From an uncultured Alphaproteobacteria bacterium (GTDB taxonomy: Bacteria > Pseudomonadota > Alphaproteobacteria > Rhodobacterales > Rhodobacteraceae): 64,000 nucleotides of DNA. Shown piece by piece: positions 4,212 through 63,821 of this stretch. The stretch covers positions 1 through 64,000 of the forward strand of contig CACJUU010000007.1 in NCBI GenBank assembly GCA_902596605.1, read 5' to 3'. The position numbers and the translations under genes are program-made. A model generated the notes under the pieces. The model made no database searches and was not told the DNA's origin. It worked only from the letters and a program-made list of their open reading frames with translations. The number at the start of each line of letters is the position of its first letter. Position 1 is the stretch's first letter.

Positions 4212-5657
4212 CTAAATACTATCTATTATTTTTCGAACTATTTGTCTTTCTTGAATTACAGCTCTGGAAAGCCAAGATGACGATCCCTTTGGCTTTTCAA
4301 AGTTACTGCTAGAGTTTTCTTTTCTTTTGTTTAAATCAGCTGAAAATATGGAAAACGCCATAACGGGAATATCCTCTTTACAAACGTATCCTGCTAATCC
4401 TCTTATATAATGCATGGTTCCCGATTTACCTTTAACCGTTATATTGCCAACCGAGTTAACTTTTCCTTTTGAAGTGTAAATTGGAATACGTTTTAAGACT
4501 GGTAAAAGACTCTTTTGAACATTATCTTGCATTAAAAACCTTCTAAAATCTTCAGATGTGGAAAAACTACCTGCGGATAACCCGCTGTGATTTAAGAATA
4601 GAGAGTTTTGCTTGCCAATAATGTCACGAAACCATCTGGTCATAATTATGGCAGATTGGTCAAGGTCATAAAGATTTGCCGAAATAAGTTTACTTGTAAC
4701 GAGTCCGAGTGACTCGGTAACCATATTTTTTGAGTATTTTAATGCACTTTTCAATATTTTTTTGTTATCAGCAGAATAGTGCGTGCACAGCAGTCTACTC
4801 TTCTTGGGTACTTTTTTACTGCCCATATTTGTAATCTCAATACCTCTATCAACCAAAAGCTGTTTCAAAGCCTCAGTGGCATAATAGGAACTCTCTCGAA
4901 CTGGTAGCCATCGACTACCTTCTTTCCCTAATATCCGCCAATTAACCGACCACCTCTCCTTGAATTTCGTTTCATCAAGCTCATAACTATACACAGGTCC
5001 TTTATTGTTTTCTAAATCAATGGTGATGTTTGTTACTTTTGCAATATTTTTTAAGCCTGGAGCAGTTAATGAAGTCTTATATTTCGCCTTTTCCAACCTT
5101 TTCCACTCAAATAGAATACGGTTCTCATTGAGGTTAATCGCTCCCATACCTGGATTATATGCATACTGAGGAAGTTGATTTCTATTTATATAATTTATGT
5201 CAGGCAGATAGCTGTTATCGTAGAAAAGGCTCCCAAGTACTTCGTTTACACCCAAATTTTTGACGGAGTCAATAAAAAGGGAAAGGTCATCCGTCTTAAG
5301 CGTGGGGTCTCCATAACCTTTGAGGTATAGGTCACCATGCAGTACAGAGTCTTTGATAACTCCATCAATGAACAATTCAGTTTTAAATCTGTCAAGTTTG
5401 TAACTATTGCTTAGATAATAACATGCAGTCACCATTTTAGTAACAGAAGCAATAGGTAACCTAAGTTTTTCGTTATGCCGACCGATGAGCTTATTCGATC
5501 TAAGGTCTACTGCCATAAAACTTGTGTTATTTTCGAAACCAGATTTTTTAATTAAACTGTTAAAAATATTTGTTGTTTTTGCTAAAGCATTTAAGGGAAT
5601 AATTCCTGTAATTGCCGACAAAGCACTCAACTTAATAAATTTTCTTTTACTAAGCAT
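4212..5657 (-). CDS. dacB: D-alanyl-D-alanine carboxypeptidase/endopeptidase (PBP4 type, peptidase S13)
   Basis: A periplasmic low-molecular-mass penicillin-binding protein that trims or cuts peptidoglycan stem peptides. The three active-site motifs are present in order: SVTK (residues 71-74), SKN (309-311) and KSG (411-413), with the long insertion after the first motif typical of PBP4/DacB. The N-terminus MLSKRKFIKLSALSAITG ends near NALA and resembles a signal peptide; KRKFIKL looks like a twin-arginine motif with the first Arg replaced by Lys. A GTG at 5672 is also in frame, but the ATG at 5657 places this signal correctly. The start overlaps the end of nadD by 8 bp, implying co-transcription. 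Confidence 0.92.
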   Translation of the reverse strand: MLSKRKFIKLSALSAITGIIPLNALAKTTNIFNSLIKKSGFENNTSFMAVDLRSNKLIGRHNEKLRLPIASVTKMVTACYYLSNSYKLDRFKTELFIDGVIKDSVLHGDLYLKGYGDPTLKTDDLSLFIDSVKNLGVNEVLGSLFYDNSYLPDINYINRNQLPQYAYNPGMGAINLNENRILFEWKRLEKAKYKTSLTAPGLKNIAKVTNITIDLENNKGPVYSYELDETKFKERWSVNWRILGKEGSRWLPVRESSYYATEALKQLLVDRGIEITNMGSKKVPKKSRLLCTHYSADNKKILKSALKYSKNMVTESLGLVTSKLISANLYDLDQSAIIMTRWFRDIIGKQNSLFLNHSGLSAGSFSTSEDFRRFLMQDNVQKSLLPVLKRIPIYTSKGKVNSVGNITVKGKSGTMHYIRGLAGYVCKEDIPVMAFSIFSADLNKRKENSSSNFEKPKGSSSWLSRAVIQERQIVRKIIDSI

Positions 5658-9315: not shown

Positions 9316-10971
9316 CTAATCTCTCCAATGGTTTACTATAGGGATACGTCTTCCAAGAGAAAAGGGCCTTCTAGATATTTTAGGTCCTGGACAGGCTTGG
9401 TATCTTTTGTATTCGCTCAAGTAAAGAAGATTTTTAACGTTTACAACGGTCTTCTCTAAAAAGCCTTTTTCAATAACTTCCTTAACCGCTAGATCATCCT
9501 CTATAAGATACTCCAAAATAGTATCAAGCTCATCATAACTTGGAAGAGAATCTGTATCTTTTTGATCAAAGGCCAGCTCAGCAGAAGGCTCTTTTAATAA
9601 AATATTATCAGGAATGGGTTTTGCCACTTTAAAATCATCGTTTTTACCAACAATATTTCTCCATTTACTAAGTTTGTAAACTTTCGTTTTATATATATCT
9701 TTAAGAGGGTTGTAAGCTCCTGCCATATCGCCATAAATAGTTGAGTAACCCACCGCAATTTCTGACTTATTACCAGTAGACAAAAGTAAGTGCTTTTCTT
9801 TATTTGAAAACGCCATCAATAACACAGCTCTTAATCTGGATTGGATATTCTCCTCTGTGACATCTCTTTTCTTACCTTGGAACAACGGTGCTAAACGTTG
9901 ATCCACTTTGTCTATAATCTCTTGTATACCTATTGTCTCAAGCGTAATGCCAAGATTTTCAGACAGTTGTTTTGCATCATCTAAGGAGGCTCTCGAATTG
10001 AACTTTGAGGGCAAGGCCAAACAGACTACATTGTTAGCACCCAACGCATCCACTGCCATAACCGCCACAAGAGCACTATCAATTCCTCCTGACAAGCCAA
10101 TAACAACTTTTTGAAAATTTGACTTCAAAACATAATCTCTTAACCCAAGCACAACGGCTTTATAGTCTTGGCTTTCACCAGAACCAATTTCCGCTATTAA
10201 TTCAGGTAATGGAACCCAACCGCTTTTTCTATGCTCAAAGATAACTTGCTGTGTTTTTTCTAAAAACTGAGGAAACTGACAGACAATAGTACCTCTATTG
10301 TCATATACAAATGATCCACCATCAAATACTAAATCATCCTGGCCACCAACCAAATTTAAGTAAATAATAGGAAGGTTAGACTCCTCACATCGACTTTTAA
10401 TTATCTGCTGTCTTTCAGATAGCTTGTTGGATTCATATGGCGAACCGTTGGGAATAATTATTATATCGGCTCCCAACTCTTTCAGTTTGGAAATGATATC
10501 TGGATGCCACGCATCTTCGCATATAGGAAACCCAATCTTAAGTGTACCTAGATCTAAGAGTTCTAATTCATCTCCAGCGACGAAAAACCTTTTCTCATCA
10601 AAAACATCATAATTAGGTAAGTGCGATTTTTTGCTGACTATTTTTATAAATCCTTTATGTATAGATATAAATGCATTATAAATTTTTTTATCCAAGAGCC
10701 ATGGAGCTCCAATTAAAATTCTAACACCAAGGCTCTTTGTTTTCTCAGCAATTTGTTGAACCTGGATAGCGATATTTTCCAAAAAAGAATGTTTATTAAC
10801 GAGATCTAGAGGCTGGTATCCACTTAGAAACATTTCAGGAAAAACTATCAGATCTGATCCTTTTTTTTCTGCCTCATTAGCTTTGGTCAAGATATGTTGC
10901 GAATTAAAGTCTATTCCTCCAACGGTAGAGTTAGACTGGACTAAAGATATTTTAAGCTGATAAATACTCAT
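9316..10971 (-). CDS. nadE: Glutamine-dependent NAD+ synthetase
   Basis: Last step of NAD+ synthesis: amidation of deamido-NAD+ using glutamine. The N-terminal nitrilase-like glutaminase domain has its catalytic triad visible at Glu46 (VFPEMF), Lys115 (KKSHLPNYDVFDE) and Cys151 (PICEDAW); the C-terminal ATP-pyrophosphatase domain has SGGIDSA at about 294-300. Channelled ammonia passes between the domains. ATG 10971 (MSIYQLKISLVQSN) is preferred over a TTG at 11007 because it fits the family N-terminus. It is followed immediately by gltX on the same strand. Confidence 0.95.
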   Translation of the reverse strand: MSIYQLKISLVQSNSTVGGIDFNSQHILTKANEAEKKGSDLIVFPEMFLSGYQPLDLVNKHSFLENIAIQVQQIAEKTKSLGVRILIGAPWLLDKKIYNAFISIHKGFIKIVSKKSHLPNYDVFDEKRFFVAGDELELLDLGTLKIGFPICEDAWHPDIISKLKELGADIIIIPNGSPYESNKLSERQQIIKSRCEESNLPIIYLNLVGGQDDLVFDGGSFVYDNRGTIVCQFPQFLEKTQQVIFEHRKSGWVPLPELIAEIGSGESQDYKAVVLGLRDYVLKSNFQKVVIGLSGGIDSALVAVMAVDALGANNVVCLALPSKFNSRASLDDAKQLSENLGITLETIGIQEIIDKVDQRLAPLFQGKKRDVTEENIQSRLRAVLLMAFSNKEKHLLLSTGNKSEIAVGYSTIYGDMAGAYNPLKDIYKTKVYKLSKWRNIVGKNDDFKVAKPIPDNILLKEPSAELAFDQKDTDSLPSYDELDTILEYLIEDDLAVKEVIEKGFLEKTVVNVKNLLYLSEYKRYQACPGPKISRRPFSLGRRIPIVNHWRD

Positions 10972-11054
10972 CGCCAATGATCCAAAATAAATTTGCTGTT
11001 TTCCCAATTTTAGTTAAAATGACCTTCTAAGTCTATCTAGTTTTGATGATGTGA

Positions 11055-11073: not shown

Positions 11074-11125
11074 CCTTCAATTTGAAATCGAAACGTCAGT
11101 AGCAAAAATGTACTCGGAGGTTCTA

Positions 11126-12550
11126 TTGAAAATTTATACTGAGAAGTTGTGGTCGCTCGTTGTGTTGATGTTTATTTTGCAAAATCCAGCTGCAGCTTTA
11201 GCTCAAGATCAGGTTAAACAATATGATGAAGGTAGCGTTTATGAGGGATCTTTTAAAAATGGGCTAAGAAATGGCTTAGGAAAGTATACTATGCCGGATG
11301 GTTTTACATATGAAGGAGAGTGGAAAGACGATCAGATTCAAGGAAAGGGAGTTGCAAGATATCCAACTGGTCAAATTTTTGAAGGCTTTTTCAAGCAAGG
11401 TGTACCCGACGGGGAAGGAACGATGACTTTTTCGGACGGAACAAAATATGAAGGAAGCTGGCTAGACGGTAAAATGGAGGGAGATGGTGTGCTATCTATG
11501 ACAGATGGATCCATATTTAAAGGAAAATTCTCTAATAATAATCGTGACGGTTATGGAGAGATGAATTATTCAGATGGTTCCATTTTCAAAGGTAATTGGA
11601 AACTTAATGAAAAACAGGGTAACGGGACATTAATTTATGCGGATAAATCTACTTATGAAGGAAATTGGGAAAAAGGTCTACAGCAAGGGTTCGGCAAACT
11701 AACTACAAAAGATGGAGTGGTTCTTGAGGGAGAATGGAAAAACGGAAAGATTAATGGAATTGGAAAACTTATCCAGTCAAATGGAGATAGATATGAAGGT
11801 AGCTTGGTAAATTGGAAGAGAAATGGAAAAGGAGTATCAATCTACACCACTGGGGAAAAGTATGATGGAAATTTCAAAGATGACCTGAGACATGGACAAG
11901 GAATTCTTACAGGTCAAGACGGCTTCAGATATGAAGGAAATTGGTCGCTCGGGAAGATGGATGGATTTGGTAAAATCACTTACTCTTCAGGGTCTGAGTA
12001 CGAGGGAAATTTTAAAAATAATCAACCAAATGGAATAGGAAAAATTTTCTTCAGTGATGGAGGTTCGTATGAAGGGTCATGGCTTAATGGGGTTATTGAA
12101 GGTAAGGGTACCGCTAAATATGCCAATGGATTAGTGTATGAAGGTGATTTTTCCCGTGGTAAAAATAACGGTTTTGGAATAATGACTTACTCAGATGGTT
12201 ACGTCTATAAGGGGTATTGGAAAAACGGAATTCAGGAAGGAGAAGGAGAAGAAATATTTCCAAACGGTACCGTTTATAAAGGCACGTTTAAAAATAATCA
12301 AAGACATGGAAAAGGAAGCATGGAAATGAAAGATGGCTTCTCATATAGTGGAGACTGGGTATCTGGAGAGATGAGTGGAAAAGGCATTGCCGTGTATGCT
12401 AACGGTGATAGATATGAGGGCTACTTTCTTAATGGTAAGAGAGAAGGAAAAGGTGTCATGAAGTTCCAAAATGGAAAGATAATTGACGCGATTTGGAAAG
12501 ATGGTAAAGAAATACAAAAAAATACAGGCAATTCAGTTGATAGAGACTAA
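11126..12550 (+). CDS. Exported MORN-repeat protein (18 repeats)
   Basis: A 474-residue protein with a signal peptide (MKIYTEKLWSLVVLMF, cleavage likely after ALA before QDQ) and then 18 consecutive 23-residue MORN repeats (YEGxWxxGxxxGxGxxxxxxG), without insertion or gap, from 11231 to 12472, plus a degenerate nineteenth. An upstream ATG at 11108 is in frame, but the TTG at 11126 has CGGAGG five bases before it and gives a clean signal sequence, so I chose it. MORN repeats form extended beta-hairpin arrays that bind proteins or lipids; bacterial exported ones are poorly characterised. The next gene on the same strand is mreB (76 bp from this stop), so a link to envelope shape is possible but unproven. 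See the finding on the 9+9 organisation. Confidence 0.9.
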   Translation: MKIYTEKLWSLVVLMFILQNPAAALAQDQVKQYDEGSVYEGSFKNGLRNGLGKYTMPDGFTYEGEWKDDQIQGKGVARYPTGQIFEGFFKQGVPDGEGTMTFSDGTKYEGSWLDGKMEGDGVLSMTDGSIFKGKFSNNNRDGYGEMNYSDGSIFKGNWKLNEKQGNGTLIYADKSTYEGNWEKGLQQGFGKLTTKDGVVLEGEWKNGKINGIGKLIQSNGDRYEGSLVNWKRNGKGVSIYTTGEKYDGNFKDDLRHGQGILTGQDGFRYEGNWSLGKMDGFGKITYSSGSEYEGNFKNNQPNGIGKIFFSDGGSYEGSWLNGVIEGKGTAKYANGLVYEGDFSRGKNNGFGIMTYSDGYVYKGYWKNGIQEGEGEEIFPNGTVYKGTFKNNQRHGKGSMEMKDGFSYSGDWVSGEMSGKGIAVYANGDRYEGYFLNGKREGKGVMKFQNGKIIDAIWKDGKEIQKNTGNSVDRD

Positions 12551-12617: not shown

Positions 12618-13667
<1,050 letters not shown>

Positions 13668-42788: not shown

Positions 42789-44552
42789 TTAGAAAAGGCT
42801 TTTAGCAAACTCTATTAGCGACTCTTTTGCACCATCATTATTCAGCCGAAAACTATCAACTTCAGCTGCCCAATCTTTATCCTTAAACTCCTCTTTTCCA
42901 CGTTTATACCATACTTTTTCTGTTATATCGTGTTCTTCATCACTGCAGAGCTTTGCTGTTAAAAGCCATGATTTAGGGTCTATATCTTCTAATTTTTCCA
43001 CTAACTCGAGACAATTGTCTTTATTTCTGGCCAAATACTCACCGAACAATACTGGAGATGTTCTGGAGTCAGAATTTGTTTTACCTTGTGCAATTGGGTC
43101 GATCTCTAAAGCTAATTTCAAGGCATCTAAACCCTGATCGATTTTACCTAGCCGTAGCGACACTTCTCCATAAACTGATAAGACACGTGGGTCATTCGGA
43201 ACCATCTTATATGCCTTGGCAGCATGCCTTTCTGCCACTCTAAAATTTCTGCCCGATAAATTTACTTCAGCCATCAATCGATGAACCTCAAAATCGTTAT
43301 CATTAAGTTCATGTGCTTTTTTCAGGCATCCTTCTGCTTCACTCCATATTTCAGCCATATCACCCTCAATAAAACCTCTACTCAACCCCTGTCCAAGTGC
43401 ACAGGCTTTCCAAGCATACGCTTGGCCGTTAGTCTCGTCAGCTTTTATAGCTTCATCGAAAGTGGTTAAGGCGTTTTGCAACGCATCCTTTTGTATTTTG
43501 TGGTGTAAAACCTTCCCTTTTAAAAGTAATTCGTAAGAGGACAGGTTTTCGGTGGGTTTTCGTTGAGCTCTTTCCAAGCTAGATAATTCAATCTCTCCCA
43601 AAAGTTTTCCTGAAATTTGTCTGACTATTTCATCTTGGACATCAAAGATATCTTCGATGATTTTATCAAACTTTTGGCTCCATATCTGACTATCGTCTTT
43701 CGCATCAGACAATTCGACAGAGATTCTTACCCTTTTACCCGATGAACGAATACTTCCAACAACAACATAATCAACGCCAAACTTTTCACAGAATGCTTTA
43801 AGATCCATCTCGTTGTCTCTAAAATCGAAACATGATTGTCTGGAGACTAGTTCTAATTCTCTTATCATTGAAAACTCGGTTATTAAGTCTTCTACAATCC
43901 CATCCACTAAATACCCACTATCTTCGTCATTGCTAGCATTCGAGAACGGCATGACAGCCAGCTTTGGCTTATAGTTTTTCTCAGACTCCTTTTTAGCGTA
44001 GCTCTTACCATCAGTCTTCTCTACTTTCCCACCTGTTGGAGAAATGCCGAACGTCTGATAACTATCAGAAATATTTTTTAATGCCTTAGTCCCCGCATCT
44101 TCAACTTTGAATTCTATTTTGTTATCAACTTGGTCCTTCACTGTTGATGAAATAAGTATTTGGCCAGGAGTACATGCAGCCTCCAACCGTGCAGCTATGT
44201 TAACGCCACTACCATAAATGTTATCCTTTTCAACAATCACATCATCCATATGCACTCCCACTCGCCATGTCATGATTGAGCTTTCTTCGGTTACTTTATT
44301 CCTTTCATCAATAGCTTTTTGAAAGTTTATCGCAGCGTTGACACAGGAGACGGGACTTGCAAATTCAGCAATAACAGAATCTCCTGCTGTATAGAAAATT
44401 TTTCCACCAAATTCTTCAATATAAGGATCTATAATAGAACGACAGGCCTTTAAATTATCTAGTGTTTTCTCTTCATCTTTTTCCATTAGACTGCTAAATC
44501 CCACACAATCAGTTGCCAAAATAGATGTTAGTCTTCTGTTTACACTAGCCAT
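42789..44552 (-). CDS. Class III nucleotidyl cyclase with TolB-like and TPR regions (paralogue A)
   Basis: 587 residues in three parts: class III cyclase catalytic domain (1-170), TolB-like N-terminal domain (about 200-330: KLAVMPFSNASNDEDSGYLVDGIVEDLITEF) and TPR-like helices (340-587). Metal ligands Asp15 and Asp58 and the transition-state residues Asn118 and Arg122 are present. The two purine-selecting positions are atypical: Tyr54 instead of Lys and Asn111 instead of Asp, so adenylyl cyclase activity cannot be assumed. Proteins of this architecture are common in rhizobia and relatives and mostly uncharacterised. Very similar to the gene at 62052-63821. Confidence 0.9.
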   Translation of the reverse strand: MASVNRRLTSILATDCVGFSSLMEKDEEKTLDNLKACRSIIDPYIEEFGGKIFYTAGDSVIAEFASPVSCVNAAINFQKAIDERNKVTEESSIMTWRVGVHMDDVIVEKDNIYGSGVNIAARLEAACTPGQILISSTVKDQVDNKIEFKVEDAGTKALKNISDSYQTFGISPTGGKVEKTDGKSYAKKESEKNYKPKLAVMPFSNASNDEDSGYLVDGIVEDLITEFSMIRELELVSRQSCFDFRDNEMDLKAFCEKFGVDYVVVGSIRSSGKRVRISVELSDAKDDSQIWSQKFDKIIEDIFDVQDEIVRQISGKLLGEIELSSLERAQRKPTENLSSYELLLKGKVLHHKIQKDALQNALTTFDEAIKADETNGQAYAWKACALGQGLSRGFIEGDMAEIWSEAEGCLKKAHELNDNDFEVHRLMAEVNLSGRNFRVAERHAAKAYKMVPNDPRVLSVYGEVSLRLGKIDQGLDALKLALEIDPIAQGKTNSDSRTSPVLFGEYLARNKDNCLELVEKLEDIDPKSWLLTAKLCSDEEHDITEKVWYKRGKEEFKDKDWAAEVDSFRLNNDGAKESLIEFAKSLF

Positions 44553-62051: not shown

Positions 62052-63821
62052 ATGTCAAAAGTTAAACGTAAATTAACAACAATTCTTGCTACCGATTGTG
62101 TCGGCTTTAGCAAAAGAATGGATGAAAACGAAGAACTAACACTTGAAAACCTAAAAGCCTGCCGATCTATAATTGATCCACAGATAAAGGAATTTGGCGG
62201 AAGAATTTTTTATACAGCAGGTGACTCAGTGATAGCGGAGTTTGAAAGTCCTGTTGAATGTGTGAACGCAGCAATAGGTTTTCAAAAAGCTATTAATGAT
62301 AGAAATAATACGCTTTCTGAAGAATCTCAGCTGGACTGGAGAGTTGGCATACATCTCGATGACGTCATAATAGAGGGAGATAATGTCTATGGTAACGGCG
62401 TAAACATTGCAGCTAGACTTGAGACTGCCTGTTCTCCTGGACAAATATTACTTTCAACAGCAGTACAAGATCAGGTTAATAAAAGAATAAATTTTAGTAT
62501 TGAAGATGCTGGGACAAAATCTTTAAAAAATATTGACGAGGCCTTTCAAGTATATGGAATCTCTCCCTCTGGCAAAAAAATTTCTAAGACCGATGCACTT
62601 AAAGAAAAGGACGCACAAGAGGCGGTTAAAAGTTATAAACCAAAATTAGCAGTTTTACCTTTTGATAATATGAACAATGATGAAGACAGCGGTTATTTAG
62701 TTGATGGTGTTGTTGAAGATTTAATTACAGAATTTTCACGAATACGAGAACTTGAGGTCTTATCCAGACAGTCTTGTTTCGAATTTCGTGATGCCTCTAG
62801 CAGCATACGAGATTTTTGCAAAAAGTTTGGAGTAGATTACGCAGTTTCAGGTAGCATTCGTACATCAGGCAAGCGAGTAAGAATTTCCGTAGAATTATCA
62901 GACTCGAGTGATGGTAAAGCTCTTTGGAACAATAAGTATGATCGTATACTAGAAGACATTTTCGATGTGCAAGATGAGATTGTGAGAAAAATATCAATAG
63001 CACTTCTGGGCGAAATTGAAATTTCAAGTCTCGAACGAGCTAATCGTAAACCAACTGAGAATCTTACCTCATACGAATTATTACTTAGAGGCAAAGTGTT
63101 GCACCATAAATTTAAGAAAGAGGCTTGCCTTGAAGCTATAGATTCATTCAATAAAGCGATTCAGGCTGACAATAATAATGGGCAGGCATATGCCTGGAAG
63201 GCTTGCGCGATTGGTCAGGGAATGGGTCGTGGTTATTTAGAAGGTGATATGAAAGAGTGGTGGGATAATTCCATGCAGTGTATAGAGAAAGCTCAACAGC
63301 TAAATGATAATGATTTTGAAGTCCATAGAATGCTGGCCGAAGTTGCCTTAAGCACCCACGATTTCAAGGCTGGAGAAAGACATGCTCGCACGTCATTTAA
63401 GATGGTTCCAAATGATCCCAGAGTATTATCGGTGTATGGAGAAATACTTTCTAGAACTGGTTCAACAGAAAAGGGAATAGAACTTCTAGAAAGTGCTTTG
63501 GAATTAGATCCCATACCAATGGGGAAAACAAATACAGATCATAGAATTAGAGCCGTTCTATTTGGATATTTTATGGATAGAAACAGTCACATGTGCAAGC
63601 AGCTTATAAAAACTCTGCAAGAGGTTGACTTTAAATCATGGCTAGTGACCGCAAAAATTTGTGATGATGAAGAGATAGAATATACTTCAGAAGTTTGGTT
63701 TGCTGAAAATAAAGATCATTTCAAGGAAATGGATTGGGAAATGGAAATAGACAGGTTCCATTTAAATAATGAAGGTTTGCAGAAATCTCTTGTAGGCTTT
63801 GTTGAAAGCCTTTTCAATTAA
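62052..63821 (+). CDS. Class III nucleotidyl cyclase with TolB-like and TPR regions (paralogue B)
   Basis: 589 residues, the same layout as the gene at 42789-44552 and highly similar throughout (for example ILATDCVGFS, NLKACRSIIDP, FYTAGDSVIAEF). Metal ligands Asp15 and Asp58, and Asn118 and Arg122, are kept; the purine-selecting positions are Tyr54 and Asn111 as in paralogue A. TolB-like region about 205-335 (KLAVLPFDNMNNDEDSGYLVDGVVEDLITEF), then TPR-like helices. It follows gcvP by 95 bp, without terminator, and could be read through from it. Confidence 0.9.
   Translation: MSKVKRKLTTILATDCVGFSKRMDENEELTLENLKACRSIIDPQIKEFGGRIFYTAGDSVIAEFESPVECVNAAIGFQKAINDRNNTLSEESQLDWRVGIHLDDVIIEGDNVYGNGVNIAARLETACSPGQILLSTAVQDQVNKRINFSIEDAGTKSLKNIDEAFQVYGISPSGKKISKTDALKEKDAQEAVKSYKPKLAVLPFDNMNNDEDSGYLVDGVVEDLITEFSRIRELEVLSRQSCFEFRDASSSIRDFCKKFGVDYAVSGSIRTSGKRVRISVELSDSSDGKALWNNKYDRILEDIFDVQDEIVRKISIALLGEIEISSLERANRKPTENLTSYELLLRGKVLHHKFKKEACLEAIDSFNKAIQADNNNGQAYAWKACAIGQGMGRGYLEGDMKEWWDNSMQCIEKAQQLNDNDFEVHRMLAEVALSTHDFKAGERHARTSFKMVPNDPRVLSVYGEILSRTGSTEKGIELLESALELDPIPMGKTNTDHRIRAVLFGYFMDRNSHMCKQLIKTLQEVDFKSWLVTAKICDDEEIEYTSEVWFAENKDHFKEMDWEMEIDRFHLNNEGLQKSLVGFVESLFN

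Follow-up and report, generated by a model that had tools for sequence, protein, structure and literature searches.

The window analysed in this study, a stretch of 64,000 nucleotides from an uncultured member of the Rhodobacteraceae, contains an open reading frame on the forward strand (positions 11108 to 12550) that encodes a 480 amino acid long protein. Its sole Pfam domain is the MORN repeat (PF02493; E = 1e-94, 305 bits at a cut-off of 22.5), and a search of the same protein against NCBIfam gave no match. Read by eye, the N-terminus resembles a signal peptide, with a charged start, a hydrophobic stretch and the sequence AAALA/QDQ, which would place cleavage after A-L-A and the probable signal peptide at residues 1 to 32 (11108 to 11203, forward strand). 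The N-termini of the orthologues are similar, and the protein is probably exported. The orthologue in the metagenome-assembled genome (MAG) EAC2087 (L013 / L039) contains an in-frame TAG in the signal-peptide region ahead of the array, reflecting either a sequencing error or decay.

Upstream of the MORN gene lies the divergently oriented nadE (9316 to 11007, reverse strand; Pfam NAD_synthase, 3.2e-74). The same neighbour is present in 32 of 33 loci of the family, so that the compared proteins are orthologous by position as well as by sequence. In the window's genus, the next gene downstream is mreB (12618 to 13667, forward strand; Pfam MreB_Mbl, 2e-143), and the genes at this locus include what we take to be mreC, mreD, rodA and the gene for PBP2. 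A functional link between the MORN protein and mreB was considered because of this adjacency, but it is weakened by the other loci: in 16 of the 33, it is leuA that follows the MORN gene (many loci have little downstream DNA), and a MORN gene directly before mreB was seen only in the window's genus and in G342. In several genomes, the MORN gene is followed by leuA and after it mreB, under both 9- and 18-repeat arrangements, and G385, G386 and G475 have mreB yet show no match to the MORN protein. In the accessible part of an article on elongation in Rhodobacter (PMC10470753), MORN, leuA and nadE were not found, and the open-licence literature yielded no paper on this MORN protein. In one genome (G023, locus L115), the space between nadE and the 18-repeat gene is occupied by a second MORN open reading frame (317 amino acids, 7 repeat hits), a tandem paralogue.

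Starting at residue 42, the protein consists of 18 consecutive repeats of 23 residues (11231 to 12472; 18 x 69 nt), which follow each other without a gap, exactly as the original prediction had it. GxG occupies columns 15 and 17 in 18/18 repeats, and an aromatic residue is found at column 8 in 17/18, with Leu in repeat 9. The GxG start and the YEGEW-like second strand, forming one beta-hairpin per repeat, identify the window protein as a MORN protein. The array is followed by a partial 19th repeat or hairpin, GKIIDAIWKDGKEIQK (12473 to 12520, forward strand; model strands 458-464 and 467-471), as a C-terminal cap. By repeat register and half-array tree, the array divides into a first unit of repeats 1-9 (11231 to 11851) and a second copy with repeats 10-18 (11852 to 12472), both 9 x 69 nt long and on the forward strand.

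A model predicted by AlphaFold2 from the window protein and 14 relatives (15 sequences) reached a pLDDT of 90.5 and displays 18 regular, near-identical hairpins with a strand pattern that is repeated 18 times; a model calculated without an alignment was poor (pLDDT 65.4) and was left unused. The best solved matches, both by structure and by sequence, are the MORN1 proteins of Trypanosoma, Toxoplasma and Plasmodium, and the MORN1 crystals 6t6q, 6t68 and 6t4d align with a TM score of 0.90-0.92 on the target over about 195 columns. The predicted fold of the window protein is accordingly described here as a regular MORN rod.

It had been proposed from the window that the array arose by doubling of a 207-residue unit, and several of the observations behind this proposal can be reproduced. 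The position-8 letters of the 18 repeats are FWFWFWWWLFWFWFWFWF, and from these the aromatics agree in 7/9 pairs of repeat n with repeat n+9. YEGSWL is present in repeats 4 and 13, and both GDRYEG and GKGV in repeats 9 and 18. The alternation of Phe and Trp at position 8 is also real, but the phase flip that had been assigned to the border between repeats 9 and 10 can be placed in the window only somewhere within repeats 6-10, because Trp in repeat 7 and Leu in repeat 9 already interrupt the alternation. In a relative, L030, the flip is located exactly at 9/10, with FWFWFWFWF in each half.

When the window protein is compared with itself at different repeat offsets, the mean BLOSUM62 score is 43.2 at offset 2, 47.6 at offset 4 and 44.6 at offset 7, and it rises to 52.3 at offset 9 (9 pairs), 52.6 at offset 11 (7 pairs), 50.4 at offset 13 and 61.0 at offset 15 (3 pairs only). 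Offsets 11 and 15 hence score as well as or above 9, and since an equal score at another offset had been named as the refuting outcome, the proposal would fail if judged on the window by itself. Since Phe-type and Trp-type repeats differ, significance was determined by shuffling repeats within the Trp and non-Trp classes, which gave p = 0.054 for offset 9 and p = 0.072 for offset 11. Nothing stands out at the DNA level (52.8% identity at offset 9 and 56.5% at offset 15), and Tandem Repeats Finder did not report the array in the window DNA. The self-comparison of the window is too eroded to establish a 9 + 9 arrangement decisively. One could even do away with a block duplication and assume that the gain or loss of one repeat near 7-9 shifted the phase, with the likeness at offset 9 being a by-product of the alternation. 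This would fit the position-8 aromatics of the window, which match at offsets 11 (6/7), 13 (5/5) and 15 (3/3) as well as at offset 9. Such a single-repeat shift is nevertheless hardly credible in light of the relatives, in which offset 9 is significant in 49/55 arrays with the Trp and non-Trp classes kept and repeats n and n+9 can be highly similar, and in light of the existence of 9-repeat orthologues.

The closest named records of the window protein come from single-cell genomes of uncultured Alphaproteobacteria and from two MAGs with the label Rhodobacteraceae, so that the family sampled here is probably the Rhodobacteraceae. Across the family, the MORN protein was matched at E <= 1e-40 in 194 of 198 sampled genomes (171 of 173 genomes of good quality), and the remaining 4/198 showed no match. 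One of the genomes lacking a whole-protein match, G475, contains beside nadE the fragment FPDGSVYEGRF (L207, about 4230-4290), which resembles the border between repeats 2 and 3; Pfam gives it no score, and it is a probable relic of a lost MORN gene. Outside the family but within the same class, MORN arrays match more weakly and are differently built, and a MORN gene was found near 0/9 outgroup nadE loci (flanks of several kb in six and of 1.5 kb in three). The 1.2-Mb genome of G059, from another family of this class, shows an unusual density of 34 matches to MORN stretches. The window's own genome has a second short MORN fragment close to a contig end (G000:C11:988-1113).

A first reading of 61 family loci revealed 50 contiguous 18-repeat arrays and 4 nine-repeat arrays; 3 short or truncated loci (L136, L139 and L144) and 4 irregular loci (L029, L128, L132 and L142) were left out. 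Together with five 18-repeat arrays that were added later, 55 arrays outside the window's genus entered the offset statistics. Among offsets 1-13, offset 9 scores highest in 53 of these 55, a self-similarity peak at the length of the nine-repeat unit and beyond composition, and only L104 and L130 prefer offset 13. The class-controlled p value of offset 9 is below 0.05 in 49/55 and below 0.001 in 15 arrays. The identity between the two halves is 41.1-68.6% with a median of 50.2%, and in L030 repeats 4 and 13 are identical at 18/23 residues. A comparison between genomes leads to the same offset, with a mean over 13 orthologues of 63.6 for offset 9 vs 54.9 for the next-best offset 13. Within the window's genus (15 arrays; L016, with 14 repeats at a contig end, was left out), offset 9 ranks first in 5/15 and offset 11 in 10/15, and the halves are 39-45% identical. 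In the half-array tree, this genus has branch lengths of about 2.4 and 1.0 changes per site. Such fast evolution, in a genus that also went furthest in change, has blurred the doubling signal, which is why the window shows it only weakly.

The alternation of Phe and Trp was discarded as evidence in its own right, as it also occurs in the 9-repeat proteins, where even offsets exceed odd ones, and across a large part of the G035 array with its 26 repeats. Consequently, only the phase flip and the residue similarity count. The possibility that slot 10, at the junction, is a hybrid repeat was also considered, but by eye it is indistinguishable from a changed repeat 1.

The unduplicated form is present in six genomes (G501, G029, G363, G326, G693 and G672), the last two of which were added among the best-scoring matches of a further pass over 394 family genomes at a cut-off of 1e-75, which 9-repeat forms with a weaker score would escape. 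All six proteins have the pattern FWFWFWFWF and lie beside a divergent nadE, that is, at the same locus as the 18-repeat proteins. They also end in the same kind of cap, a partial repeat (GAEYRGYW...) that directly follows repeat 9 and reads G-A-E/Q-Y-R-G-Y-W in four proteins and as variants in two. When used as a query, a 9-repeat protein typically aligns to two successive stretches of an 18-repeat protein, for example with residues 1-208 and then 1-219.

In three protein trees, the 9-repeat genomes branch outside the clade containing the 18-repeat genomes (support 84/84 for NadE, 100/100 for NadE+GltX+MreB and 100/99 for RpoB+RpoC), and genomes with odd array lengths or lacking the gene nest inside the 18-repeat clade in the NadE and NadE+GltX+MreB trees. 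Two 9-repeat lineages branch off successively (96/80 for NadE+GltX+MreB and 93/89 for RpoB+RpoC), and by parsimony this makes nine repeats the ancestral state. A single clade of all 9-repeat genomes is not rejected by the AU test on RpoB+RpoC (p = 0.112), and under that topology parsimony does not decide on the direction. From these trees, it is likely that the 9-repeat lineages are paraphyletic and that nine repeats are ancestral.

The opposite direction would require that 18 repeats are ancestral and that recombination of one half with the other shortened the array to 9 repeats. Apart from the AU result, this idea draws on a chimera-like appearance of the 9-repeat proteins, with a likeness to the first half in repeats 1-3 and 5 and to the second half in repeats 8-9. 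For repeats 1-3, the mean distance of the 9-repeat proteins to the first half (0.89) is indeed smaller than the distance between the halves (1.48); for these comparisons, trees of the 69-column partitions were too short for many of their forks, and mean distances alone were used. Repeats 3-7 are about equally distant in all three directions (1.16-1.24), but in repeats 7-9 the distance between the halves (1.12) is smaller than that of either half to the 9-repeat proteins (1.26 and 1.53), which speaks against a contraction. Moreover, a single breakpoint should produce a step in the preference of the 9-repeat proteins for the first over the second half; the score difference instead falls more or less gradually along repeats 1-9 (+31, +15, +10, +2.5, +9, +1, -5, -16 and -12), which is explained if the free ends stayed alike and the junction repeats changed. 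As the best trees would in addition demand two independent contraction events, we regard this scenario as improbable.

The half-array tree was calculated from 68 rows, namely both halves of 32 proteins chosen from the arrays above and, in addition, four 9-repeat proteins. It separates three clades, with the first halves at 99/92, the second halves at 100/97 and the 9-repeat proteins at 100/99, the latter being placed between the two half-array clades. L030 and L137 branch earliest among both the first and the second halves, as predicted if one duplication preceded the split of these genomes. A second such tree, built under a simpler model from the halves of 17 of these proteins together with six 9-repeat rows, retained the three groups, with a support of only 56/44 for the first halves. 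Similarity between repeats n and n+9 might also have evolved by convergence, imposed by a structural period of nine repeats, and the regular fold makes such a period conceivable. Convergence, however, gives no reason to expect 9-repeat orthologues that occupy this locus and end in a similar cap, or three clades in which identical genomes branch early among the first and the second halves, and the 26-repeat array of G035 has no peak at offset 9; we consider convergence very improbable.

The offset preference of the relatives, the 9-repeat orthologues and the half-array tree all support the proposed doubling of a 9-repeat, 207-residue unit, for which the comparison with homologues of either length proved more informative than the window. 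We assign a probability of roughly 0.85 to the reading that the 18-repeat array derives from one in-frame tandem duplication of a 9-repeat protein, with an inferred role as an exported periplasmic rod or scaffold. We place the doubling early in the history of the family, as an ancient event followed by erosion and not a recent one.

On the reading that the data support, one head-to-tail, in-frame copy of the complete 9-repeat array (621 bp) produced 18 repeats in the family's stem, once the lineages with 9 repeats today had diverged, probably by unequal recombination or replication slippage between repeats. As the doubled unit is odd and position 8 alternates between Phe and Trp, two Phe repeats became adjacent at 9/10, creating a phase defect halfway along the rod. 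Most lineages later lost the position-8 aromatic of repeats 7 and 9 in the first copy, with the window's genus having gone furthest (Trp7, Leu9). Among the 55 family arrays, this aromatic is found at slot 7 in 4/55 and at slot 9 in 13/55, compared to 54/55 at slot 16 (Phe in 53, Tyr in 1) and 55/55 at slot 18. Phe is present at both 7 and 9 in 6/6 nine-repeat proteins, and the early-branching 18-repeat arrays L030, L137 and L223 keep both. The phase defect and the loss of groove aromatics in the first copy may have generated a hinge or binding site that was absent in the 9-repeat ancestor, a tentative suggestion that we find rather doubtful. Array length can still change, as indicated by G035 (L029 / L126), with about 26 MORN repeats at the nadE locus, and G325, with about 17 repeats, both of which fall within the 18-repeat clade. 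Neither G035 nor G367, whose proteins have 26 repeats, entered the counts, as these arrays are rearranged or of uncertain placement at the nadE locus.

After Sec export, the array would fold into a long, twisted rod of beta-hairpins with an aromatic groove. The accessible part of the MORN1 structure report (PMC7725318) describes each repeat as a hairpin plus loop, with nine repeats spanning about 80 A; on this MORN1 scale of about 8 nm per nine repeats, a rod of 18 repeats would reach about 16 nm. As far as this part of the report extends, TbMORN1, TgMORN1 and PfMORN1 (6t4r, 6t6q and 6t4d) share with the window protein the all-MORN composition of 23-residue hairpins and, as predicted for the latter, the elongated twisted sheet with an aromatic groove. 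They differ in being eukaryotic (TbMORN1 has 15 repeats) and in forming tail-to-tail dimers, antiparallel 2 x 9 in the crystals, whereas the window protein carries two 9-repeat units head to tail in one chain and a probable export signal. The same part of the report states that membrane binding of MORN1 was not found and argues for protein-protein interaction. Because the window protein combines a probable export signal with no other domain, its sequence points to a periplasmic protein-binding scaffold as the most likely role.

MORN arrays and multi-repeat duplications are both already known, and the record of the event is what is unusually complete here. In their abstract, Bjorklund et al. 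2006 (PMC1553488) state that repeat proteins often gain several units in one step; nebulin, which grows by sevens, resembles the window array in that several repeats are copied at once and that this is visible from internal similarity. That part of the article stresses eukaryotes, and vertebrates above all; the present case concerns a bacterial family in which the unduplicated state is alive in early-branching genomes. With single-unit, freshly doubled and eroded states alive in one family and at one locus, a one-step doubling is well resolved, and the cost or benefit of doubling an array, as well as that of the phase defect produced by an odd unit, becomes directly testable. The survey also shows that nearly every genome sampled in the family encodes a MORN rod that is probably exported. 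We regard this as a clean example of repeat-protein growth and not as a new kind of system.

The window contains a further pair of paralogues, at 42789 to 44552 on the reverse strand and 62052 to 63821 on the forward strand, which are about 17.5 kb apart and 64% identical over 588 residues. They have a class-III cyclase domain, identified by Pfam on the protein encoded at 42789 to 44552, and weak TPR matches.
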